Part shown: positions 6,430 through 31,664 of the stretch, piece by piece
How positions within the stretch are numbered: the first letter of the stretch is position 1
Layout: every line of letters begins with the position of its first letter
Assembly (NCBI GenBank): GCA_030531435.1
Contig: JAUNNN010000024.1
Span: 1 to 35,288 of the forward strand
Source: Lachnospiraceae bacterium
GTDB lineage: Bacteria > Bacillota > Clostridia > Lachnospirales > Lachnospiraceae
DNA: 35,288 nucleotides
Reading direction: 5' to 3'
The notes under the pieces: generated by a model
The model's database searches: none
Told to the model about the DNA's origin: nothing
What the model saw: only the letters and a program-made list of their open reading frames with translations
Made by a program: the position numbers and the translations under genes

Positions 6430-7276
6430 ACTATATTCAAAGACAAGACTCATATTCCAGGTGGCTTTTTTTGCTTTAACTAATGGATACATAAAAGGAT
6501 TTACTTCTGGAAAGATATATACAGGCAATTCAAAAAAACTATGTGTTCCAGGGCTTAATTGCTATTCATGCCCAGGCGCTTTGTACTCATGTCCAGTAGG
6601 ATCACTTCAGGCCGTTATGAGCCAAAAATCGTATACGGTGTCTCTTTATATTATAGGAATGCTTACAGCATTTGGGACAGTTTTTGGAAGATTTATATGT
6701 GGGTTTATGTGCCCATTCGGACTTGTCCAGGACTTACTTTATAAAATCCCAATAATGGATAAAAAGAAATGCATAAAGGGGCATAAGATATTAAAGAATG
6801 TACGATATATAATTCTCATATTATTTGTTATTCTTTTACCTACATTCTTTGTAAATGCTGCCGGAGGTGGCAATCCATGGTTTTGTGAATATATATGTCC
6901 ATCGGGAACTTTATTTGGTGCAATTCCTTTACTTATAGTAAATAAAAGTCTTAGAGCACTCTTAAGATGGCGATTTTTCTTAAAAATATCCATATTATGC
7001 CTGATAGTCATTATTTCCATAAAATATTATCGTCCATTTTGTAAGTATCTATGTCCTCTTGGGTTAATATATGGATGGTTCAACAAGTTTTCCTTTGTAC
7101 GTATATCATATGACAAAGATAAATGTAATAATTGTGGGGCGTGTAATAATGCCTGCAAAATGGGAATAGATGTAAAGAATAATCCGAACAGTTGTGATTG
7201 TATTAGATGCTTTGACTGTGTACACTCCTGTAAAGAAGGAGCTCTTCAAAGCAGTATAGGTATTACAAAAAGGTGA
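6416..7276 (+). CDS. Membrane polyferredoxin, NapH/CcoG-like 4Fe-4S protein
   Basis: This 286-aa membrane protein is rich in cysteine. It has an N-terminal Cys group (43, 49, 52, 59), repeated C-x3-CP motifs next to membrane helices (CGFMCPFG 95-102, CEYICPSG 157-164, CKYLCPLG 209-216), and a C-terminal two-cluster ferredoxin domain: CNNCGACNNAC at 237-247 and CIRCFDCVHSC at 262-272. NapH, RnfB-related and CcoG-type proteins pass electrons across or along the membrane in this way. The start is a TTG at 6416 (or the TTG at 6422), inside the preceding small gene, with GGAG at 6408-6411. Context suggests it feeds reducing power to the CXXC peptide and the TlpA-like lipoprotein. Confidence 0.9.
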   Translation: MELDKLYSKTRLIFQVAFFALTNGYIKGFTSGKIYTGNSKKLCVPGLNCYSCPGALYSCPVGSLQAVMSQKSYTVSLYIIGMLTAFGTVFGRFICGFMCPFGLVQDLLYKIPIMDKKKCIKGHKILKNVRYIILILFVILLPTFFVNAAGGGNPWFCEYICPSGTLFGAIPLLIVNKSLRALLRWRFFLKISILCLIVIISIKYYRPFCKYLCPLGLIYGWFNKFSFVRISYDKDKCNNCGACNNACKMGIDVKNNPNSCDCIRCFDCVHSCKEGALQSSIGITKR

Positions 7277-7279
7277 AGT

Positions 7280-7981
7280 ATGCATATTGCGGTTTTAGAT
7301 GACAATGTAGCTGATAGAAATCAGATGAATCGACTTTTGACAAGAGCTTCTGATGCAAATCGTGGTACAGAGATTGAAGAGTACTACATTGATTTGTTTG
7401 GAAGTATTGAGTCTCTTATGCCAAAAACCGCTATGTACGATGCCATATTCATTGATATGGTCACAGAAGATATTAAAGGACACGAGATTGCTGAGAGAAT
7501 CTTCAAACAGGGAGTCAGTGCAAAGATCGTTCTATGTATAAGCAAGATTAATTACAAGGATGTAGTCAGTGATGAACTAAAAGATGAATTTTTGTATATA
7601 AATAAGCCAATTAAGGTTCCAGAACTAAATGAAATCCTATACATCTGTGATGCAAAAAGAATGAAGAAGGAACCAAAAATTGAACTTAGGACAAAAGGTG
7701 AAACGGTTTACATAAAGTATTCTGATTTCTACTATGCAAAAGCCTTGGAAATGGGCAAGACAATAGTGACTCTTACAAATGGAGATAATTTAGTTGTATT
7801 AAAAGATATAAGTGCTTTTCGTGGGGATATGTCGCCATATGATTTCATTAAAAGCATAAACTTAGATACAATAGTTAGTATGAAGCATGTAAAAAAGTTT
7901 AGTACACTTAAAGTTATTATGGACGATGGAACTGAGTTTAGAAATAATAGCCTGTTAGTTAAACTGTTAAAAAAGAATTAA
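7280..7981 (+). CDS. LytTR-family response regulator
   Basis: A 233-aa two-domain regulator. The receiver domain (1-125) has the acidic pair Asp7-Asp8, the likely phospho-acceptor Asp59 in FIDM and Lys109 in NKP. The C-terminal LytTR DNA-binding domain (about 135-233) has the typical ending in which a FRNNSL segment precedes a short basic tail. LytTR regulators bind DNA and often control virulence, bacteriocin or surface genes. It starts 3 bases after the polyferredoxin stop, with AGGTGA as ribosome site. No histidine kinase is adjacent on this strand, so its sensor must be elsewhere. Co-transcription with a redox cassette is unusual and hints at redox-linked control. Confidence 0.88.
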   Translation: MHIAVLDDNVADRNQMNRLLTRASDANRGTEIEEYYIDLFGSIESLMPKTAMYDAIFIDMVTEDIKGHEIAERIFKQGVSAKIVLCISKINYKDVVSDELKDEFLYINKPIKVPELNEILYICDAKRMKKEPKIELRTKGETVYIKYSDFYYAKALEMGKTIVTLTNGDNLVVLKDISAFRGDMSPYDFIKSINLDTIVSMKHVKKFSTLKVIMDDGTEFRNNSLLVKLLKKN

Positions 7982-8006
7982 TATAAGTGGAATAATTAGG
8001 TTTACA

Positions 8007-8040
8007 TAAAAACACATACGCAAAAGCATATGTGTTTTTT
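8007..8040. terminator. Bidirectional terminator between convergent genes
   Basis: An 11-bp stem (8011-8021 with 8026-8036, one mismatch on the plus strand that becomes G-U on the minus strand) has an AAAA loop, an A-run before it and a T-run after it. It would end both the LytTR regulator transcript and the MATE operon; the T-run overlaps the MATE stop codon. Confidence 0.88.
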
Positions 8041-9373
8041 ATATTTCCTCTTTTTTCGTATAATAAATATAGAATAAAAAACATATTATCGCTGATAGAA
8101 GTGATCCAAGAGGCGCTGCCCATCCCATTGGATAAAGAGTATCAGGCCACCATTTACTAAAGAAATATGTGCCTGGAATACGAATTAATGCAACTGATAT
8201 CATATTATGAATAAATGATATTTTTGATTTCTCAACACCGCAGAAGTATCCGCTGAAGCAGAAATGAAATGCCGCAAAAAATGTATCAAAGCTATATGAT
8301 CTAAGGTACTCACAGCCAGCTGGTAATACAGCAGTGTCCTTTGTAAATAACGTTACAATAGTGTGTGGCAAAAACTGATTGTATATTCCGCAGAATAGTC
8401 CCCAAGCTCCAGTAATAAGGAGTCCATAATAAAGACTCTGTCTTGCTCTCTCTGGTTTCCCGGCTCCCATATTCTGGGCAGTAATAGCGGAGATTGCCGA
8501 AAGATAAGATGATGGTATAAGGAACATGAAGCATATTATTTTTTCAACTATTCCAACACTTGCAGCAGCAATAAGTCCGCGACTGTTAGCAATAATTGTA
8601 ATTACAATAAACGCAATCTGAATTAGTCCATCCTGTAGAGCAATTGGTGAACCAACATACAGTATTTTTGATAAACTGTCACGGTTTAGCTTTGCACCTT
8701 TTATTTTTAATTCAAAACCAAAATCAATCTTTCTTATGGCAAATAAAGAAATAATGACACTAATTATTTGACCAAAAACTGTTCCAAGGGCAGCTCCAGT
8801 AGCACCAAGTCCTAAATATCCAATGAAAAGAAAATCCAGTATGATATTTGATATACATGCTATTGCCACAAATATCATAGGACGTTTTGAGTCGCCAGCA
8901 CCTCTGAAAATACTGCTTATAACATTATATGCGGTAATGAATGGAATTCCTGCAAAGCATATAAATAAATATGAATTAGTCTGTGTGACAGCCTCAATTG
9001 GAGTTGACATAACTTTGGTTATAGGCTTTGTCAAAAGAAGTAGTGAAACTGTGAGAATAAATGCAATAATTGAAAAAAGATAAACTGAATTGCTAACTAT
9101 TTTAGAGGATTCGTCTTTATCCTTTGCACCAACACATCTTCCAACATGTACAGTTGTACCCATTGCAAAACCAAGAATTATAACAGTAATCATATGCATA
9201 ACCTGACTACCAATAGATACAGCTGTGGTAGTTGATGCATCGTTATAAAGTCCTACAATCATTAAATCAGCCATTCCATAAAATGTCTGCATAAAAGCGG
9301 CAAGCATATATGGAAGAGCAAACTTTATTAAATTATTTCTTACGTTTCCTACTGTTAAATCGTTATCAATCAT
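8039..9373 (-). CDS. MATE family efflux transporter
   Basis: The 444-aa protein has about twelve membrane helices in two related halves, as in MATE (NorM/DinF-type) Na+- or H+-coupled drug exporters. Family-like stretches are LIKFALPYMLAAFMQTFYGMAD near the N-terminus (two short parts: LIKFALP and YGMADLMIVG), AVSIGSQVMH, and IFRGAGDSKRPM in the first half, with SAITAQNMGAGKPERA in the second. It starts two bases after the stop of the small DUF202-like gene, so it is third in an operon with a hybrid histidine kinase. Its substrate cannot be read from sequence. Confidence 0.93.
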   Translation of the reverse strand: MIDNDLTVGNVRNNLIKFALPYMLAAFMQTFYGMADLMIVGLYNDASTTTAVSIGSQVMHMITVIILGFAMGTTVHVGRCVGAKDKDESSKIVSNSVYLFSIIAFILTVSLLLLTKPITKVMSTPIEAVTQTNSYLFICFAGIPFITAYNVISSIFRGAGDSKRPMIFVAIACISNIILDFLFIGYLGLGATGAALGTVFGQIISVIISLFAIRKIDFGFELKIKGAKLNRDSLSKILYVGSPIALQDGLIQIAFIVITIIANSRGLIAAASVGIVEKIICFMFLIPSSYLSAISAITAQNMGAGKPERARQSLYYGLLITGAWGLFCGIYNQFLPHTIVTLFTKDTAVLPAGCEYLRSYSFDTFFAAFHFCFSGYFCGVEKSKISFIHNMISVALIRIPGTYFFSKWWPDTLYPMGWAAPLGSLLSAIICFLFYIYYTKKEEI

Positions 9374-21348: not shown

Positions 21349-22182
21349 TTAGTTATCTTTTTTATGAACATTTAAATAATAGAGTGGTAATCCAAGTGCG
21401 AATGAACCGCCAATAATATTTCCGATTGTTACAGGAATAAGGTTCTTAACAAGGAAACCATATACTGTTAAGTTATTTAATTTCTCTGCACTAAGTCCAA
21501 GCTGACTTGTTGCAACAGCCACATAATCAGGATTAGCTTTTGCAAATAAGCCTGCTGTGATGTAGTACATATTAGCAACACAGTGCTCAAATCCAGATGT
21601 AACAAATAACATTATTACAAAGAAACATACAAGTAATTTGCCTGCGATATCTTTTGAACAATTTGCCATAAGAACAGCACCTACAACAAGAATATTACAA
21701 AGAATTCCTGATACTAAAGCAGTTGTGAAGTTCATGCTTACTTTATTTGCAGCTATATTGATTGTATAAGCTCCAAGAAGTCCTGATGAGTAATTTAACT
21801 GGTTACTTAAAATTATTAACCATGAAAATACAACACCACCAACAAAGTTACCTAAAAATACTACAAGCAATAATCTGACAAAATCAAGAGCTGTTGTCTT
21901 TTTTCCAGGAACAGCCATAACTGCGAGACAATCACCAGTGAAAAGCTCTGCTCCTAACAGTATTACCATCATAAGTCCAACAGGGAAAACACATCCAGCA
22001 ACAAGTCTTGCAACACCTACATTGCTTATGTTGTGAGCTGCAACGTTACTTCCAGCTGCACCCATTCCAATAAACATACCTGCGAAAATCGCTTTAAAGA
22101 AGATTGTTGAAGCCTTTGTTTTTGACTTTGCAACACTTCCATCAATGTATTTTTGAATTGATTCAGATGTGGTTAATGACAT
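21349..22182 (-). CDS. Formate/nitrite transporter family channel (FocA-like)
   Basis: A 277-aa membrane protein of the FNT family, pentameric channels that pass formate, nitrite or hydrosulfide. Six helices are visible, with the family segments AELFTGDC, GNFVGG, GFEHCVANMYYI and the C-terminal GNIIGGS. The GFEH-x-x-ANM type motif holds the central pore histidine. ATG 22182 is used, not an upstream in-frame TTG at 22203, because AGGAG is 8 bases before the ATG. Formate is the likely substrate in a mixed-acid fermenting anaerobe, but the nearby genes (no pyruvate formate-lyase) do not prove it. Confidence 0.92.
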   Translation of the reverse strand: MSLTTSESIQKYIDGSVAKSKTKASTIFFKAIFAGMFIGMGAAGSNVAAHNISNVGVARLVAGCVFPVGLMMVILLGAELFTGDCLAVMAVPGKKTTALDFVRLLLVVFLGNFVGGVVFSWLIILSNQLNYSSGLLGAYTINIAANKVSMNFTTALVSGILCNILVVGAVLMANCSKDIAGKLLVCFFVIMLFVTSGFEHCVANMYYITAGLFAKANPDYVAVATSQLGLSAEKLNNLTVYGFLVKNLIPVTIGNIIGGSFALGLPLYYLNVHKKDN

Positions 22183-22229
22183 AATTATTTCTCCTAAACT
22201 CAATTATTTTATGTAAAAACACTTACAAT

Positions 22230-22251: not shown

Positions 22252-22413
22252 AATAAAACAAAAGTGTGTTAAATAATTTCTGTATAAATTATAAAATATA
22301 ATGTAAAATTATACTTAGGAAATTGCCATTATTATAGTTTGTTATGCAGTTCTGTATTATAGAATTTACTTACACAGACGAATATAATGATTTTTCAGAG
22401 GAGTGGTACGTTT

Positions 22414-23889
22414 ATGAATCTATTTGAAGAAGCAGTAATTTATTCTACTATAATGCATGCTGGAAAAACACGTAAGGACAACTCCCCTTACATTTTGCAT
22501 CCACTTGAAGTATCTCAGCTTATTGCAACGATGACAGATGACATAGAAGTTATTACAGCAGGAGTTCTTCATGATGTTGTAGAAGACACGGATGGTACAA
22601 TAGATGAAATAAGAGAGCGATTTGGAGAAAGAGTAGCTAATCTTGTAGTATCAGAGACTGAAAATAAGTATGAAAATCTCCCAAAGTCAGAAACATGGAA
22701 AAGACGTAAAGAAGAAAGCCTTGCAGTACTTAAGAATTCTCCGGACATAGGCGTAAAGATGCTATGGCTCGCTGATAAGCTCTCTAATATTAGATCAATC
22801 GCCAGACGATATGGGGAGATTGGTAATTCGGTGTGGCAAACATTTAACCAAAATGATCCTATGATGCACAAATGGTATTACCAGTCAGTTGCAGAGATTA
22901 TTGAGATGGATCTAAATAGAACCGGTGCATATAAAGAACTGATACAGCATATAAACTTTATATGGCCAGGGACATTTGCTCGAAGTAAGGAACAATATAG
23001 AAAATATAAGGAATTGTCAATTGACGGTCTTGAGTTAATAGGAAAAGGTGCTAAAGGCAATGTGTACCGCGTTGATGATGAATTAATTGTCAAAGTCTAT
23101 AACAACGAAAACATGTTCAAGGATATTGAAAGGGAGAATGCTCTTGCAAGAAAGGCTTTTATTGCAGGAATACCTACAGCAATTTCCTTTGGTATCGTTA
23201 CAGTTGGTAAAAAATATGGTTCATTATTTGAACTAGTTGAATCAAATACAATCTCAGGACTTATTGCCAAAAATCCTGATAATGTTGAATTTTATGCAAA
23301 GACAATGGCAGATCTTGCCAGGCAAATTCATAATACAGATACAACGGGAATGGATATTCCTGACTATATGCCAGAGGTGTATAAATGGATAAATGGTGGA
23401 GTTGCTAATGTTGATGTAGACGTAGCTAAAAAGGTTACAGAAATGCTTGACGCTCTTCCTAAAGCTACAACTATGATTCATGGAGATTTCCATACTGGAA
23501 ATGTTATGCAGCAAAAGGGTGAGTATTTACTAATAGATATGGATCGTTTATCAACGTGTAATCCAATTGCTGAACTAAGTGGTGTTTACATGTTCTATGT
23601 TGCCTTTGGTGAACTTGGATCAGAATTTGTAGATAACCTCATGGGATTTTCACATGATGTGTCAAAAGAATATTATAGGCATTTTATGAATTACTATTTT
23701 AGTAATAAATCTGAAGATGAAATACAGCTGATAAGTAAAAAATGTGCACTTCTTGCATATTTAAGGCTTGTGAGAAGATGCTATAAGAAAGGATTAAACT
23801 TATCTGAGGTAGATAGAAAAGCATGCGACTACTGCATGAGCAAGATATATGAGCTTCTAGAGGATGTAGATGATTTTATCATTACATAG
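22414..23889 (+). CDS. Fusion of (p)ppGpp-hydrolase HD domain and APH-like kinase
   Basis: A 491-aa two-domain protein. Residues 1-180 form an HD domain like the hydrolase half of RelA/SpoT and the small alarmone hydrolases (MESH1-like): R20-K, PYILHPLEV (His29), LHDVVEDT (His53, Asp54, Glu57, Asp58), and LADKLSNI (Asp121). Spacings match the Mn-binding set of Rel hydrolases. Residues 205-450 look like an aminoglycoside phosphotransferase/choline-kinase-type fold: GKGAKGNVYRV (210-220), Lys227, HGDFHTGNVM (356-365, Asp358, Asn363) and IDMD (Asp375). Both sites look intact. ATG 22414 has GAGGAG upstream; an ATG at 22387 lacks it. No synthetase domain is present. The kinase substrate is unknown. 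Confidence 0.87.
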   Translation: MNLFEEAVIYSTIMHAGKTRKDNSPYILHPLEVSQLIATMTDDIEVITAGVLHDVVEDTDGTIDEIRERFGERVANLVVSETENKYENLPKSETWKRRKEESLAVLKNSPDIGVKMLWLADKLSNIRSIARRYGEIGNSVWQTFNQNDPMMHKWYYQSVAEIIEMDLNRTGAYKELIQHINFIWPGTFARSKEQYRKYKELSIDGLELIGKGAKGNVYRVDDELIVKVYNNENMFKDIERENALARKAFIAGIPTAISFGIVTVGKKYGSLFELVESNTISGLIAKNPDNVEFYAKTMADLARQIHNTDTTGMDIPDYMPEVYKWINGGVANVDVDVAKKVTEMLDALPKATTMIHGDFHTGNVMQQKGEYLLIDMDRLSTCNPIAELSGVYMFYVAFGELGSEFVDNLMGFSHDVSKEYYRHFMNYYFSNKSEDEIQLISKKCALLAYLRLVRRCYKKGLNLSEVDRKACDYCMSKIYELLEDVDDFIIT

Positions 23890-24850: not shown

Positions 24851-26986
24851 ATGAAAATGAGGACGAAACATATGAAAACGACAACAAAAATAGGGAAATA
24901 TATTGTACTTACATTTTTGACTGTTATCTTATCCATTATTCCTAAACACAATGTTTATGCAGAAGAAGTAAACGAGACAGTTGTAAAGGTTGGATATTAT
25001 GAAAATGAGAACTTCCAGGAAGGTGCATCTGAAGGTGCGGTAAAATCTGGATATTCCTACGAATATCTTCAGAAGATTGCAACTTATACTGGCTGGAAAT
25101 ACGAATATGTATACGGTTCATGGTCTGAAATGTATGATGCATTTATCAATGGTGATATTGATTTGCTTGCAGGGCTTGGATATTCGGAAGAACGTTTGGA
25201 AATCATGAATTATCCAAATTATCCAATGGGATATGAAAGCTATTATCTTTATATACGTGGAGATGATTCAGAGATTACAGTTGATCCATCAACGTTAAAT
25301 GGTAAGAAAATTGGAACTATTTCAGGACTTATGGAAAAAGCAATCCATGAATGGATGGAGAAAAATAATGTAGATGCTCAAGTTATCATTTATGACGATG
25401 TAACTGATAGAGATCAAGCTTTAAACAATGGAGAAATAGATGCCTTAATAGGAGAGGGAGCTTCTGTAGGCTCTAAGATGAACATCGTTTCTTTGCTTAA
25501 AATTAAAAATGTAGATATGTATATGTGCGTGGCAAAGGAAAGAACGGATTTGTTACGTGATTTGAATATGGCCCAGGAATATATTGATAGTAAGGAACCA
25601 TATTATATAAATGATTTATCTAAAAAACATTTCAGTAAAAATGCTATAAGTGTACAGGTGTCAGCTGAAGAGACTGCATGGCTTGAATCTCATAATTATA
25701 CAATTGCGATAGGTTACATGGACAATTTCTTACCTTATTGTGGGACGGATGAAAATGGAAATGCAACGGGAATTATGGTGGATGTAATTAATGAAGCCTT
25801 TTCTAATATTAAATCCGAAAAACCAATACAGTTTGAATATCGTCCATATAATAATACAGAAGAAATGATTCAGGCTATACATTCTCATGAAATAGAGATA
25901 CTGTTCCCAATATCTGATGATATTTATTTTATGGAACAAAATAGTCTATATCATTCAGTTGATGTCATTAAAACAGCCATGAATTTAGTATATATGGGAG
26001 ACCCGGCCAACGCAGAGCAGGGTATTATTGCTATAAATAAAAATAATCAAATCCAGTATAACTATATAGCTAATTATCTTCCTGATAATGAGGTGATGTT
26101 TTTTGATTCAGTAGATGAATGTCTTGATGCCGTTGTTGAAGGAAAAGCAAATGGAGCAATTCTTAGTGGACTAAGAGCAAGTACTTTGCTGAAACAAAGA
26201 TATTACTCTGATTTATCCTATATCGAATTACCACATGATACTGTAAAGTGCTTTGGAGTAAGTACTGCTCATAAAGGTATCTTACCTTTACTCAACCAAG
26301 CGCTTAACTCTATTGAAGAAAACAGTGCCGTTGATTATACCTTTAAATATGCAGACTATGAAGAAGATTACAGCATTACAGAGTTTATCAGAAGACATAA
26401 AACGCAGGTTGCATTTGCTATTATGCTATTAGCTATTGTCGTTGTTATTGTTATCGCAAATGATAGAGTGAAAACACAAAAGCGTAATCTCTACTATGAA
26501 TTTGCTTATAAAGATGGACTGACAAAGCTATTAAACAGACGTGCATACGAAGAGGAACTTGAAAAACTAAATCGTTCAATCCCAGAAAAACTGATTTGCG
26601 TATCTATGGATTTGACAAGACTTAAGTTTGTAAATGATACGTACGGACACGCTGCAGGAGACGAGCTGATTAGTGAAGCTGGTAGATTAATTACAGAAAG
26701 TTTTGGCAAGTACGGTAAAATATTCCGAACTGGTGGCGATGAGTATTATGGACTTTTACAGGCTGATATTTCAGAATTCGAAGCAGCCCAAAAGCATCTT
26801 GATGAACTTTGTGAAAACTGGAAAGGTGTTTATAGTAGTAATCTAAAAATTGCTGTAGGTGCTGCAACTCCAAAGGATGTAGAAAGCAAGCAGATAATCG
26901 AAATATGTAAGTATGCTGATAAATGTATGTATCAAGCAAAATCAGATTGGTATAAGAGTTCTGGAATCAATAGACGAGTAAATTAA
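24851..26986 (+). CDS. Diguanylate cyclase with two SBP_bac_3-like sensor domains
   Basis: A 711-aa membrane receptor. A signal/anchor (18-36) leads to two solute-binding-type domains, about 44-255 and 280-505, each with the SBP_bac_3 pattern (AVKSGYSYEYLQKIA, MYDAFINGDIDLLAG; then ATGIMVDVINEAF). A membrane helix (about 520-537) connects to a GGDEF domain (550-700) with DGLTKLLNRRAYEE, Asp587 and GGDEY (628-632). GGDEY keeps the catalytic residues, so it should make c-di-GMP from GTP. No RxxD inhibitory site precedes it. It would sense amino-acid-like ligands outside the cell. It is first in an operon with a pilin-like gene and a degenerate GGDEF gene. Confidence 0.92.
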   Translation: MKMRTKHMKTTTKIGKYIVLTFLTVILSIIPKHNVYAEEVNETVVKVGYYENENFQEGASEGAVKSGYSYEYLQKIATYTGWKYEYVYGSWSEMYDAFINGDIDLLAGLGYSEERLEIMNYPNYPMGYESYYLYIRGDDSEITVDPSTLNGKKIGTISGLMEKAIHEWMEKNNVDAQVIIYDDVTDRDQALNNGEIDALIGEGASVGSKMNIVSLLKIKNVDMYMCVAKERTDLLRDLNMAQEYIDSKEPYYINDLSKKHFSKNAISVQVSAEETAWLESHNYTIAIGYMDNFLPYCGTDENGNATGIMVDVINEAFSNIKSEKPIQFEYRPYNNTEEMIQAIHSHEIEILFPISDDIYFMEQNSLYHSVDVIKTAMNLVYMGDPANAEQGIIAINKNNQIQYNYIANYLPDNEVMFFDSVDECLDAVVEGKANGAILSGLRASTLLKQRYYSDLSYIELPHDTVKCFGVSTAHKGILPLLNQALNSIEENSAVDYTFKYADYEEDYSITEFIRRHKTQVAFAIMLLAIVVVIVIANDRVKTQKRNLYYEFAYKDGLTKLLNRRAYEEELEKLNRSIPEKLICVSMDLTRLKFVNDTYGHAAGDELISEAGRLITESFGKYGKIFRTGGDEYYGLLQADISEFEAAQKHLDELCENWKGVYSSNLKIAVGAATPKDVESKQIIEICKYADKCMYQAKSDWYKSSGINRRVN

Positions 26987-27014
26987 AAAATAAACGGACA
27001 TGAGGTCACAAATT

Positions 27015-27626
27015 ATGACTAAAAAATTTGATAACAAAGGTTTATCATTGATAGAGCTAATTGTGGCAATTGCTATTATGGCAATACTAGTGGGTGTAAT
27101 TGCTCCTCAAATGGTAAAATATATTGAAAGGGCGAAACAGGTCAAGATAGAAAAAGAGGCCAGTGAGTTCATTAGATCGGCACAAATTGCATTTGTAGAT
27201 GTAGCTGCCCAGGGAAAGAGCCCTGAGAGCGATTCTGTAAAGAACAGAACCGAAACTTCAAGCCCTTATTACAAAAATGGTACAAAATACGGAAATCTAA
27301 CAAACTGGACAGTACATAACGGGGTAGTTGCAGGCGCAACTAATGGCCCATTTGCAGATGAATTCTTTTCATTACTAGGCATATCATATGGAAAGGAATG
27401 GAAAAGCGGAAAATCTTCGATTCCAATTTCAGAAAATCAACCAAAGATAAACCCAGCAGGGTCTATGACAAAAGAATGTATCTTTCAGGTTTTCTACGAT
27501 ATAGATGGAAACATGGTTGTTGAATATAGCAGGGAAGGCTATTTTGTAAGAATGGAAAATTCTCTTTTAGTAGAATCTATTAGACTTAAGAATGATAGAG
27601 AGAAGCATTTCACATCTTGGCAATAA
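27015..27626 (+). CDS. Type IV pilin-like protein
   Basis: A 203-aa protein with a class III prepilin signal: short basic leader MTKKFDNKG then LSLIELIVAIAIMAILVGVIAP, cut after Gly9, with Glu at mature position 5 and a 20-residue hydrophobic helix. The rest (40-203) is a globular pilin domain. It would be cleaved by a prepilin peptidase and assembled by a type IV pilus or pseudopilus machine, none of which lies in the window. ATG 27015 is chosen because GAGG sits 9 bases upstream; the in-frame ATG at 27000 overlaps that site. It lies between two GGDEF-type membrane genes 28 and 18 bases away. Confidence 0.9.
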   Translation: MTKKFDNKGLSLIELIVAIAIMAILVGVIAPQMVKYIERAKQVKIEKEASEFIRSAQIAFVDVAAQGKSPESDSVKNRTETSSPYYKNGTKYGNLTNWTVHNGVVAGATNGPFADEFFSLLGISYGKEWKSGKSSIPISENQPKINPAGSMTKECIFQVFYDIDGNMVVEYSREGYFVRMENSLLVESIRLKNDREKHFTSWQ

Positions 27627-27644
27627 AGAAGGGCGGATATAAAG

Positions 27645-29006
27645 TTGGAAAACAAAGAAATCGTGATTAAAGGAAAAGGAATAAAGGTAAACATTTTATC
27701 CGGCATTTTTATAGCTATAGGTGTAATTACAATGATTGCCTCTATTTTTGTGATTAAAAAGATATATGTTACGTATGATGAAATGACGAATTCTTATCAG
27801 AACGTTGAGGTACAAAGGGAAGCTGCCGAGAGTTTTCAAGAAGCATCTGACTATTTAACAGACCAGTCAAGACGATTTGTTGTAACTGGTGATGTGAAGA
27901 ATACAGAAAACTATTTTGAAGAAATAAACGATACAAAACGAAGAGAAGCAGCCATTGATGTGATTGAGAATTCACATATGCTAAATCTAGAGTGTGAACT
28001 TTTATACAATGCGATGGAGTTATCAGAAAGCCTTGCCAAGCAGGAAATACATGCAATGAAACTATCTGCAGTGGCAATGAAGCTTGATGAATCCAAGCTT
28101 CCAGATGAAATCGCATCTTATGAATTGTCAGGCGACGAGCTAAATCTTAACAGTACTGAACAGCAGAATCTAGCAATACATTTACTATATAATAGTGAAT
28201 ACGAGGATTATAAAAACAGAATTAACTGGGATATAAACAATGCAATTACATTAATCAAGGATGAATCTGGCACTCGTTATCGCGAAAATGAGTCAAGCCT
28301 AATTATAGTGTTAAATATAGCAACATTGCTTATTTTTGTTATGTTTATTTTGCTCATGCTTATATTCATCTTTAACATACTTTTAGTAGTTAATCCTGCG
28401 AAGAAGTTTGTGGAATTGTTAGACAAAGGAGAAAAACTCCCAGAAATTGGAGGATATGAGTTTAGAAAATTTGCTAGAAGATATAATGATATTTACCGTT
28501 CAAACAAGAAAAACCGCGAGCTTTTGAGGGAGCAGGGAGAGGTAGATGATTTAACTGGAACACTGAAGGCTGGTACTTTGGAGCTTGTCCGTCATAACCT
28601 AACTCAGACTAATGAATCGTTAGGAATTATGCTAATTGATATAGACAATTTCAGATCTATCAAGGAAGCTAACGGATACGATATGGCAGACAAGGTAGTA
28701 GCAAAAGTCGCAAACTTGTTTATTACTTCTTTTAAGCGCAGTGATTACATTATTCGTACTAGTCAGGATGAATTTGAAATCTTTCTTCTTCGAATGCAAC
28801 AGCAAGATTCAAATATGCTAATAGAACGAATTGATGAAATCAACAGGAAATTGAAGGATACATCCGATGGTGTAATGGAGGCATCTGTTAGTGTGGGGGT
28901 TTCGTTCTCTGAAAATGGATATACTGTTGAAGCCGAGAGAAAAGCAGATATGGCATTGAACTCTGTAAAGGAAAATGGTAGAGGCGCCTGTAAAATATCC
29001 TTATAA
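27645..29006 (+). CDS. Membrane protein with degenerate GGDEF domain
   Basis: A 453-aa protein with two membrane helices (about 15-38 and 218-249), an outer helical bundle (40-215) like the four-helix sensors of chemoreceptors, and a C-terminal GGDEF-type fold (about 298-453; DDLTGTLKAGTLE, LIDIDNFRSIKEANGYDMAD). The signature is SQDEF (373-377) instead of GGDEF, losing the glycines that shape the GTP loop, and the RxxD inhibitory-site position reads KRSD (364-367). It is therefore probably not a cyclase but a GTP or c-di-GMP sensing partner. It starts with TTG after GGGCGGA and is last in the operon ending at 29045-29078. Confidence 0.85.
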   Translation: MENKEIVIKGKGIKVNILSGIFIAIGVITMIASIFVIKKIYVTYDEMTNSYQNVEVQREAAESFQEASDYLTDQSRRFVVTGDVKNTENYFEEINDTKRREAAIDVIENSHMLNLECELLYNAMELSESLAKQEIHAMKLSAVAMKLDESKLPDEIASYELSGDELNLNSTEQQNLAIHLLYNSEYEDYKNRINWDINNAITLIKDESGTRYRENESSLIIVLNIATLLIFVMFILLMLIFIFNILLVVNPAKKFVELLDKGEKLPEIGGYEFRKFARRYNDIYRSNKKNRELLREQGEVDDLTGTLKAGTLELVRHNLTQTNESLGIMLIDIDNFRSIKEANGYDMADKVVAKVANLFITSFKRSDYIIRTSQDEFEIFLLRMQQQDSNMLIERIDEINRKLKDTSDGVMEASVSVGVSFSENGYTVEAERKADMALNSVKENGRGACKISL

Positions 29007-29044: not shown

Positions 29045-29078
29045 GCCCGTTTAGAAGCAATTCTAAGCGGGCTTTTTT
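29045..29078 (+). terminator. Rho-independent terminator of the GGDEF-pilin operon
   Basis: A 12-bp stem (29045-29056 with 29061-29072, one G-U), a GCAA tetraloop and a six-T tail (29073-29078). A very strong intrinsic terminator, 39 bases after the last stop codon of the operon. Confidence 0.95.
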
Positions 29079-29173: not shown

Positions 29174-29231
29174 AGGTCTATATGATTTCGTTTTATAAAC
29201 TTATTATGAAAAAATAAAAAATGGAGTGAAA

Positions 29232-31664
29232 ATGTACATTAAACTGATAGGAACTATTTTATTACCAACTTTATTTACTGTTAGTATATATGTTCTGAAT
29301 AAGAAAAAAGTCCTCAGTGGACTAAATACATATGTTAAGCAAGTTCTGATTGGAATAACTTTTGGTCTAATAGCTTGTGTTTTGGCGACTTTTGGTAGTA
29401 CGTCATCAGATGAGCTTATTAGGTTAAGTGATAGTGCAATATTATGCTCAGGGCTTATATTTGGTGGTCCTGCAGGTATTATTTCGGGAATAATCTGTAG
29501 CATATACTGCTACTTTGCATCATTTATAACGATACATGAATTTATCCGCACAGGCCTGATAGTGGGAAGCATAGTTGCAGGTGTATATGCTGCATTTGCA
29601 AGAAGATTTATGTTTGAAAATAAAATGCCTAGTTGGGTTATGGGGCTCTTTGTTGGAATAACAATGGAGGTCGTCCACTTTAATTTACTTTTTTCTGCAA
29701 ATGTAAATGATTTTAAGGATATCCTCAAGGTATTAAATGTTATTACAATACCTTCAATTGTTGCAAATGGAGTAGCAGTATGTATTCCGATACTCATAAT
29801 AACGGTTATTACTAAGGAACCATTGTTTATGAGGACTAAGAGTAAAGCCAGAATTTCACAGACTATTCAGGCGTGGCTTTTAGGTACAGTTCTTGTTGCA
29901 CTTATTTGTTCTTCATTATTTACATTTTCACTTCAGGCAATGATTGCAAATATGGATACAGAATCTATAATGTCAGACACAATCTCAGACGTTAAGAAAG
30001 ATATTATAGATGCTTCTGATGATAACTTACTAAAGATCACCGAAAGTATTGCAAGTGAAATCGTAGCTAATAATGTAACTGATTATAATGAGCTTGTTAA
30101 TATTGCTGACAGCTATAATGTTGATGAAATAAACAGAGTTAATAAGGCTGGCATAATATATGCAACAACAAATAATAATTACATGGGTTTCGATATGAGA
30201 CAAGGTGAACAGTCAGCCGAATTCATGTGTTTAATAGATGGGTTTAATAGAAAATATGTACAGAGACTAATGCCTCTTTCATACAATTCATCAATTAATA
30301 TGAAATATGCAGGTGTACGTTTAGGCGATGGAGGATTTGTACAGGTAGGATACAGCGAGTCTAGATTTTACAGTGATATTAAGGAGCGAATTGCCCTTTC
30401 TGCAGTTAACAGACATATAGGATCTAAGGGATATGTTGTAATTACAGATAACAAATTCGCATATCAAAGTTATCGTACGGACAGTGATATCCTTTACTTA
30501 AGTAATTCGTCAGGACCATCAATTTTTGGTGAAATGATTGAAGGTACAGAAGAGTACACTATTGTTAATGGGAATATACTCAATAGAGATGTATTCTGCA
30601 TGTATACAACAGCTGAAGGATATTACATCATTGGTGTATATCCAGCAGATGAAGCGTATTTCACTAGAAATGTAGCGCTTTACGCAAACGTCTTCACAGA
30701 GATTATTATTTTTGCTGTATTATTTGCAGTAATCTATATATTAATAAGGGTTATAGTAGTAAACAATATTTTCAAAGTTAATCAGTCCCTTGCTCAGATA
30801 ACAGGCGGAAACCTAGATACAGTTGTTGATGTTAGAAATAACGAAGAGTTTTCAATGTTGTCTAATGACATCAACAGTACTGTAGATACACTAAAAAAAT
30901 ACATAGCGGAGGCTGCATCACGAATAGATGCGGAATTACAATATGCTAAAGACATTCAAGCTTCAGCATTACCTCACATAGAACCGAACTTTGTTGGCAA
31001 AAATGAATATGAACTTTACGCATGCATGTTTACAGCAAAAGAGGTTGGTGGCGATTTCTATGATTTCTACTATGTAGATGACAATCATCTTGCGATTACT
31101 ATTGCAGATGTTTCTGGCAAAGGTATTCCAGCTGCGCTATTTATGATGACATCTAAAACGATGCTTAGAAATATGATAGAGTCTGGTATGTCAATTGAGG
31201 AGGCAATGACTTCTGCAAATGAAAGACTATGCGAGAATAACGATGCAAATATGTTCGTAACTGTGTGGGCAGCAATTATTGATCTTCAAACTGGGCTTAT
31301 GGAGTTTGGTAATGCAGGACATAACCATCCGGTAATACGAAAAAAGGATGGAAGCTACGAATTCCTTAAATCTAGACCAGGAATGGTTTTAGCGGGAGTG
31401 GGCGGTGTACATTATAGACGTAATGAATATAAGCTTGAAGCTGGAGATATTTTATTCCTCTATACAGATGGAGTCACAGAAGCGACAAATATAAATAATG
31501 AGTTGTTTGGTGATGATAAATTAATTGAATCATTAAATAATGCATATAAAGAGGACATTTCAATGGAAGAGGTGTGCAATTCAGTAAAGAAAGATGTGGA
31601 CTTATTTGTTGATGAAGCACCACAGTTTGATGATATAACCATGTTAGCTTATAAATTTAAATAG
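29232..31664 (+). CDS. SpoIIE-type serine phosphatase receptor (5TMR-LYT, HAMP)
   Basis: An 810-aa receptor. The N-terminal 190 residues form a multi-helix membrane sensor like 5TMR-LYT (LIFGGPAGIISG and LGIITG-like repeats). A helix at about 212-235 leads to an outer Cache-like domain (about 240-490), a second helix (about 495-518), a HAMP-like region, and a PP2C/SpoIIE phosphatase domain (about 590-808) with EVGGDFYDF, DVSGKGIPAALFM, GNAGHNHP, LYTDGVTEA and FDDITML. The Asp residues in GGDFYD, DVSGKG, TDG and DDIT are the metal ligands, so it should dephosphorylate phospho-Ser/Thr targets such as anti-anti-sigma factors. ATG 29232 is used; an upstream GTG at 29226 overlaps the GGAG. No anti-sigma gene is nearby. 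Confidence 0.9.
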   Translation: MYIKLIGTILLPTLFTVSIYVLNKKKVLSGLNTYVKQVLIGITFGLIACVLATFGSTSSDELIRLSDSAILCSGLIFGGPAGIISGIICSIYCYFASFITIHEFIRTGLIVGSIVAGVYAAFARRFMFENKMPSWVMGLFVGITMEVVHFNLLFSANVNDFKDILKVLNVITIPSIVANGVAVCIPILIITVITKEPLFMRTKSKARISQTIQAWLLGTVLVALICSSLFTFSLQAMIANMDTESIMSDTISDVKKDIIDASDDNLLKITESIASEIVANNVTDYNELVNIADSYNVDEINRVNKAGIIYATTNNNYMGFDMRQGEQSAEFMCLIDGFNRKYVQRLMPLSYNSSINMKYAGVRLGDGGFVQVGYSESRFYSDIKERIALSAVNRHIGSKGYVVITDNKFAYQSYRTDSDILYLSNSSGPSIFGEMIEGTEEYTIVNGNILNRDVFCMYTTAEGYYIIGVYPADEAYFTRNVALYANVFTEIIIFAVLFAVIYILIRVIVVNNIFKVNQSLAQITGGNLDTVVDVRNNEEFSMLSNDINSTVDTLKKYIAEAASRIDAELQYAKDIQASALPHIEPNFVGKNEYELYACMFTAKEVGGDFYDFYYVDDNHLAITIADVSGKGIPAALFMMTSKTMLRNMIESGMSIEEAMTSANERLCENNDANMFVTVWAAIIDLQTGLMEFGNAGHNHPVIRKKDGSYEFLKSRPGMVLAGVGGVHYRRNEYKLEAGDILFLYTDGVTEATNINNELFGDDKLIESLNNAYKEDISMEEVCNSVKKDVDLFVDEAPQFDDITMLAYKFK

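Follow-up and report, generated by a model that had tools for sequence, protein, structure and literature searches.

Small alarmone hydrolases (SAHs) of the MixSpo (RelH) family include the C. glutamicum RelH (7QOC/7QOD), the L. levettii enzyme (7QOE) and Listeria Lmo0812 (4YF1), according to the available text of PMC10434055. RelHCg is described as having (pp)pGpp pyrophosphohydrolase activity in the accessible part of PMC5954133, while an orphan SAH hydrolyses several alarmones together with NADPH in the accessible part of PMC9765508, where toxic synthetases are also named as frequent companions of SAHs. In RelSeq, Mn2+ is bound by H53, H77 and D144, D78 belongs to the same site, and R44 and N148 contact the nucleotide (PMC13299517, partial text). 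Small RSHs in general are single-domain proteins, and a Mesh1-like protein is joined to DUF429, not to a kinase (PMC3153485, partial text). No description of an SAH-kinase fusion or of a STAS-APH protein, nor of an APH member with an SAH domain, was found in the titles and abstract openings of the open-access literature, a search that lies outside preprints and most subscription papers; the accessible parts of PMC10434055 and PMC1262709 contain no SAH-kinase fusion, and no papers on TIGR02172 were found in the open-access literature searched.

The window, i.e. the whole stretch of 35,288 nucleotides analysed here, comes from a Lachnospiraceae bacterium and contains the following features:

22414..23889, + strand: HD(SAH)-APH fusion protein of 491 aa, an open frame with Pfam HD_4 and APH and with 19 further full-length relatives
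22414..22980, + strand: predicted small alarmone hydrolase domain of RelH/Lmo0812 type, residues 1-189 (R20, K21, H29, H53, D54, E57, D58, D121 and N125), from PDB profile matches, a model and conservation
23011..23886, + strand: APH-fold kinase domain, about residues 200-491 (K227, E241, H356-G-D358, N363, D375 and D377), Pfam APH and TIGR02172-like, with these residues invariant in 19/19 fusions
29226..31664, + strand: 5TMR_LYT-SpoIIE (PP2C-type) phosphatase of 812 aa (Pfam), a possible functional partner lying 5.3 kb downstream of the fusion

The ATG of the fusion gene at 22414 is preceded by a GAGGAG-like stretch, and an alternative in-frame ATG at 22387 gives a product of 500 aa. In Pfam, HD_4 covers residues 7-132 (3e-21, above the cut-off) and APH covers residues 206-398 (1.6e-14; 54.7 bits against a cut-off of 23.2), while the 491-aa protein has no synthetase, TGS or ACT match. 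The sequence-only reading of this locus, which proposed a Rel/SpoT-type hydrolase and an APH-fold kinase in one protein, both sites apparently live and no synthetase domain present, agrees with the Pfam matches and the conserved residues, and R20, H29, H53-D54, E57-D58, D121, K227, HGDFHTGN (356-363) and D375 are found where it placed them. Its Rel-like spacing holds for H29 to H53, 24 residues as from H53 to H77 in RelSeq, but H53 and D121 are 68 residues apart, not the proposed 67, which is the distance between H77 and D144 in the RelSeq numbering (PMC13299517, partial text). By motif, RelSeq H53, H77, D144, D78, R44 and N148 correspond to H29, H53, D121, D54, R20 and N125 of the window protein. 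The HD hydrolase residues and their spacing (within one residue) are therefore common to the window protein and long Rel/SpoT enzymes, from which it differs in having no synthetase, TGS or ACT match. PADLOC matched nothing on the 491-aa protein, and a defence system was rejected on that account.

By sequence, the hydrolase half comes closest to the solved structures of Lmo0812 (4yf1) and of the L. levettii SAH (7qoe), with Rel and MESH1 ranking behind; one Rel chain in the sequence search, and some Rel chains in the search with a profile of nine fusions, are interspersed among the RelH-type matches. In the latter search of the PDB, 4yf1 is matched at 8e-33 over residues 12-182 and 7qoe at 2.6e-28, and a match of this span points to a whole small alarmone hydrolase, more than the HD core. 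The NCBIfam Rel/SpoT model covers residues 10-129, under its cut-off. A model of the HD half, built from an alignment of 30 relatives consisting of one MAG protein and 29 viral-contig SAHs, has block-mean pLDDT of 89-98 over residues 1-180, except for residues 81-100 (70 and 81). Its top Foldseek matches are 7qoe (TMt 0.86) and C. glutamicum RelH (7qoc_B, 0.88), with target TM-scores of 0.85-0.88, and the fold matches also take in human MESH1 solved with NADPH and PAPS. The fold match, together with the alignment to solved SAHs, indicates indirectly that the HD residues meet in one site. The alarmone-hydrolase HD domain of the sequence-only reading stands, with the correction that it is a full SAH of RelH/Lmo0812 type, as 7qoe, 7qoc and 4yf1 rank before MESH1 and Rel. 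As judged from these comparisons, the HD half is a complete SAH of RelH/Lmo0812 type with a site that looks intact, carrying the metal ligands H29, H53, D54 and D121 together with E57-D58. It shares with RelH-type SAHs the whole SAH fold over residues 1-185, the metal ligands and the R/K/N positions, and differs from them by its fusion to an APH kinase, a departure from their usual, though not strictly defining, single-domain layout.

SAH domains were recorded in several other proteins. At L263 (1047-2483, + strand), one is attached C-terminally to an MscS-type mechanosensitive channel (HD_4 and parts of MS_channel in Pfam), while L264 (900-2549, + strand) encodes a 549-aa SseB - Macro domain - SAH (HD_4) protein. 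The SAHs of L084, L086, L088, L091, L092 and L095 are about 290-310 aa long and bear an N-terminal extension of about 110 aa, for which Pfam has no name in the three tested (L254, L255 and L259, the genes of L086, L088 and L091).

The kinase half matches TIGR02172 at residues 203-428 (model positions 3 to 226, 2e-27), but the 96.5 bits of the whole protein and the 98 bits of the kinase half alone lie under the NCBIfam family cut-off of 228.2, whereas the APH superfamily (PF01636) is matched over its cut-off. Among the eight kinase halves in alignment A3, TIGR02172 is matched by 8/8, NF008738 (serine/threonine kinase) and CotS by six each, CotI by three and APH(6) by one, every model other than TIGR02172 matching weakly. 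The best solved match by profile is YtaA (CotI/YtaA, 2Q83; 9.5e-07), while a single-sequence model of this half is unusable (pLDDT 38). K227, E241, HGDFHTGN (356-363), D375 and D377 make up what we take to be a complete APH-type site. The kinase had also been read as possibly of resistance type, a link that is not supported: the fusion protein reaches the cut-off of no resistance family (best MphB, 17.8 of 615 bits; NCBIfam), and its close relatives are mostly STAS-APH or STAS-APH-HATPase proteins.

Within a family sample of 397 genomes, at least nine carry a full-length fusion, own genome included, and the other copies are 50-55% identical to the window protein; at most three candidates were scored per genome in this search. 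The 37 genomes of the genus hold 11 copies in 10 genomes, again including the window's own, while three genomes of a phylum sample of 398 have the fusion, all from the same family, and one further copy (L282) was met in a sample of the order when a different protein served as query. The total is 20 full-length fusions including the window's own, 19 of which were aligned. A contig end in another genome of the genus (L122; G817 contig C5:5112-5264) matches the window protein over residues 441-491 at 100% identity, which suggests that a nearly identical copy of the fusion is present there. A relative of the HD half only, 43% identical, is encoded at L032 in a Lachnospiraceae MAG, and SAH matches at E up to 1e-35 occur in 129/397 family genomes.

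The active-site residues are highly conserved in this set. H29, H53, D54, E57, D60, D121, K122 and R127 are invariant in 19/19 aligned fusions, R20, K21 and N125 are kept in 18/19 and D58 in 14/19, with R20, D58 and N125 all lost together in L040. The kinase residues K227, E241, H356, D358, N363, D375 and D377 are present in 19/19. Homologues of which most lack one site were looked for, and this is not the case, as the seven kinase residues and the metal ligands are kept throughout and D58 is gone from 5/19; the same domain order recurs in the 19 further full-length fusions from the genome samples. With 20 full-length copies, and active-site residues invariant in the 19 aligned except D58, R20 and N125, comparison of the proteins confirms that the fusion is beyond chance. 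D58 is kept in 26/26 stand-alone SAHs, and its loss in 5/19 fusions against 0/26 of these may reflect relaxed or changed chemistry.

The SAH halves of the 20 fusions form one clade (100/99; 94/99 in the 19-row tree). Three kinase-only proteins fall together with their kinase halves, L125 and L126 being nested inside (15-row fork, 98/90), and the fusion label needs three changes on the kinase tree. One fusion followed by loss of the SAH in some lineages would be the simplest account of this tree, though the tree does not show it. In the plasmid and phage collections, no record covers 80% of the fusion query at a single place, and the best 15 of 326 and best 15 of 94 matches, respectively, all fall within residues 1-227. 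In viral contigs, the HD profile finds HD-only relatives among the 80 matches listed, while the fusion profile and the kinase profile find nothing. The fusion was consequently rejected as phage or plasmid cargo.

Most kinase relatives without the HD half have an N-terminal STAS domain of about 95 residues, and some also have a C-terminal HATPase_c_2 domain (Pfam); among the neighbours tested are a stand-alone STAS gene and SpoIIE phosphatases, some of which carry HATPase_c_2 as well. The SAH domain of the window clade thus occupies the N-terminal place held by STAS in these relatives. Domains in the loci of other genomes were called with local profiles made from 4 to 9 sequences, by which weak STAS, HATPase and SpoIIE domains may be missed and histidine kinases may be included among the HATPase calls. 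These profiles identify 53 STAS-APH proteins, from 51 fetched loci plus one more at the fusion locus L034, and all of them (53/53) contain the motif SSxG[LI]R, the SSxG region being presumably the bearer of the phosphorylated serine in anti-sigma antagonists. A fused HATPase is found at 9/51 STAS-APH loci, and a SpoIIE gene lies within the stretch at 13/51 and is absent from it at 38/51. Such phosphatases dephosphorylate STAS anti-anti-sigma factors (PMC11418112, partial text). By comparison, the 20 SAH-only control loci, fetched from the better-scoring places of the family sample (129 genomes of which have an SAH match), contain no STAS, SpoIIE, HATPase or kinase gene in 20/20 stretches of 4-15 kb (SpoIIE 13/51 versus 0/20, Fisher p 0.008). 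Some relatives, such as L047 and L050, have the STAS phospho-acceptor motif, a PP2C phosphatase and a HATPase kinase. Relatives of the window protein share with SpoIIE/RsbU - STAS - RsbW systems three characteristic domains and the SSxG motif, but here an APH-fold kinase and an SAH seem to take the place of the sigma factor as output, and the window protein is itself without a STAS domain.

At six loci (L043, L044, L046, L047, L048 and L050), a stand-alone SAH gene adjoins a STAS-APH gene in the same orientation, the two either overlapping or standing no more than 137 bases apart. The SAH gene is upstream in all but L047, i.e. at 5/6 loci in the same order as in the fusion. Six such adjacencies were observed against about 0.3 expected among 46, where the chance rate is rough (14 kb in 2.5 Mb) and the count carries a selection bias, because the query P0001 contains both domains. 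All six paired SAHs (6/6) keep R20, H29, H53, D54, E57, D58, D121 and N125. The SAH of the paired locus L046 is sister to the main fusion clade (97/91), a position that is not resolved in the 19-row tree.

A second fusion is encoded in another genus at L262, where SAH, a STAS match and APH are found in one 608-aa protein, 98% identical over residues 29-608 to that of L268 from the same genus. At 20.8 and 21.4 bits, the STAS matches of L262 and L268 fall short of the Pfam cut-offs, and the local STAS profile missed L262, but the place of the match and its DFSGLR motif fit STAS. The SAH of L262 groups with the stand-alone SAH of L281 (100/99), apart from the main fusion clade, and the SAH tree thus shows that SAH and (STAS-)APH were joined at least twice.

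The surroundings of the fusion vary. Among 19 fusion loci, SpoIIE occurs in three (window, L034 and L036) and a STAS gene lies directly upstream in two (L040 and L118), so that a partner-switch gene is present at 5/19 fusion loci versus 0/20 SAH-only loci, a modest difference (Fisher p 0.02); the fetched stretches of the other 14/19, some of them short (4.6-10 kb), contain none. Up to six genes on each side, and apart from the near-identical loci L112 and L115, the recurrent neighbours are SpoIIE (three loci) and STAS (two), followed by a gene reading like a VOC protein, by its sequence alone (three), an uncharacterised gene (three, two of which are L112/L115) and an uncharacterised pair (two). 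A conserved metabolic operon was rejected, as none recurs within this range at the 19 fusions. A divergent formate/nitrite transporter gene adjoins the fusion in the window (21352-22185) and in L039 (8594-9220).

Downstream of the window fusion, on the same strand, follow genes for a LysM protein, an SBP_bac_3-GGDEF protein, an N_methyl-motif protein and a GGDEF protein, and then the SpoIIE phosphatase. The interval 24851-29006 accordingly holds two GGDEF proteins, one of them with SBP_bac_3 parts, and the N_methyl-motif protein. Over 825 columns, among them the sensor part, the phosphatase shares 42% identity with the L050 SpoIIE-HATPase protein, whose gene belongs to a row that also holds STAS, SAH and STAS-APH genes. 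Since the fusion and the phosphatase gene are separated by four genes and a terminator-like site (29045-29072), the window phosphatase may be unrelated to the fusion, and the arrangement is only suggestive of a link between them.

The genome of the window encodes two SpoIIE matches over the cut-off and one HATPase_c_2 match over the cut-off, the latter beside the other SpoIIE gene. Its three STAS matches are a protein of ~120 aa (contig C90), the window's Sulfate_transp-STAS protein and a 573-codon frame on C3. The window itself therefore has the SpoIIE gene 5.3 kb away as its partner-switch part, while HATPase_c_2 and the small STAS protein are on other contigs. The genome also encodes a long Rel with the H, HD and ED motifs, in addition to an SAS and a third synthetase-like ORF, and with its long Rel it probably has an alarmone hydrolase besides the fusion. 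The third ORF (L135, contig C2) is a RelA_SpoT-like 339-codon frame with a partial match of 52.9 bits. BLAST with two synthetase queries from this genome, by which remote synthetases could be missed, turns up no synthetase at any fusion, paired or SAH-only locus. Besides the synthetases of the genome itself, this search locates a single one, at L072, where a kinase-only relative (6679-7581) lies beside a small alarmone synthetase (7806-8525), both on the - strand, a single case; this synthetase is 65% identical over 199 aa to the SAS of the window genome.

The window protein is tentatively identified as a bifunctional SAH-kinase that stems from a partner-switching module, where an APH-fold kinase and the removal of alarmone would be under joint control, an assignment whose probability we put at slightly below even. 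In this mechanism, a membrane SpoIIE phosphatase and an RsbW-like kinase would set the phosphorylation state of STAS (in cis in the relatives, in trans here), which would gate the APH-fold kinase as the output of the switch. The SAH domain would hydrolyse (pp)pGpp-type nucleotides with Mn2+, and the lowering of alarmone and the changed phosphorylation of the kinase target would occur together. We infer the gating by STAS, the hydrolysis of (pp)pGpp and the coordination of both from domain content and gene order, and confidence in the partner-switch reading is slightly lowered by the kinase tree, which does not show a single origin, and by the L262 STAS match, which is under the cut-offs. A link of the fusion to starvation signalling, as the sequence-only reading had it, is plausible. 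A further, rather unlikely reading is an alarmone-coupled partner switch where the kinase phosphorylates STAS proteins, or is their direct output, and the fused SAH reads or erases (pp)pGpp, by which starvation signalling and the SpoIIE/STAS phospho-switch would meet in a single polypeptide.

The protein may instead be a metabolic enzyme, whose hydrolase and kinase act on the same or on successive small molecules, e.g. in a nucleotide or NAD(P) cycle, with partner-switch proteins at most regulating it. In its favour, APH-fold enzymes mostly have small-molecule substrates, the HD half matches the fold of human MESH1 solved with NADPH and PAPS, several alarmones and NADPH are hydrolysed by an orphan SAH (PMC9765508, partial text), and fusion of the same two enzymes on two occasions fits a shared metabolism. 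However, no metabolic operon recurs within six genes per side of the 19 fusion loci and the fusion partners of the relatives are signalling domains (STAS and HATPase), so that we regard this alternative as doubtful. The HD domain may also be mainly a sensor, binding an alarmone and gating the kinase with little or no hydrolysis. This role is possible in some members in view of the loss of D58 in 5/19 fusions (with R20 and N125 also gone from L040), beside kinase residues that are invariant in 19/19, but as a general account it is improbable, as all metal ligands and E57 are kept in 19/19, the window copy keeps every residue tested, and the six paired stand-alone SAHs keep all eight (6/6).

Two further explanations have very little probability. 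An antibiotic-resistance kinase with an accessory HD domain would belong to the superfamily common to aminoglycoside and macrolide phosphotransferases, and weak matches to APH(2'') and Mph models are found, but the listed resistance models score far below their cut-offs and STAS-APH proteins make up most of the nearest relatives; such an identity is scarcely credible. It is just as hard to credit that the HD half serves as antitoxin to a toxic alarmone synthetase. SAHs often accompany such synthetases (PMC9765508, partial text) and the window genome has an SAS and a third synthetase-like ORF, but the two-query BLAST locates no synthetase at the fusion, paired or SAH-only loci, and the one at L072 is beside a kinase-only gene.

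What appears to be new here is the setting of the fusion, namely its STAS-APH relatives, SpoIIE and the SAH neighbours, which is more informative than the fusion alone. If the identification as a bifunctional SAH-kinase from a partner-switching module is true, alarmone turnover and STAS/SpoIIE partner switching would be tied together by a fusion and by a repeated gene neighbourhood, and partner switching would have an output other than a sigma factor. It would also offer a testable role for the SAH genes and the STAS-APH proteins.
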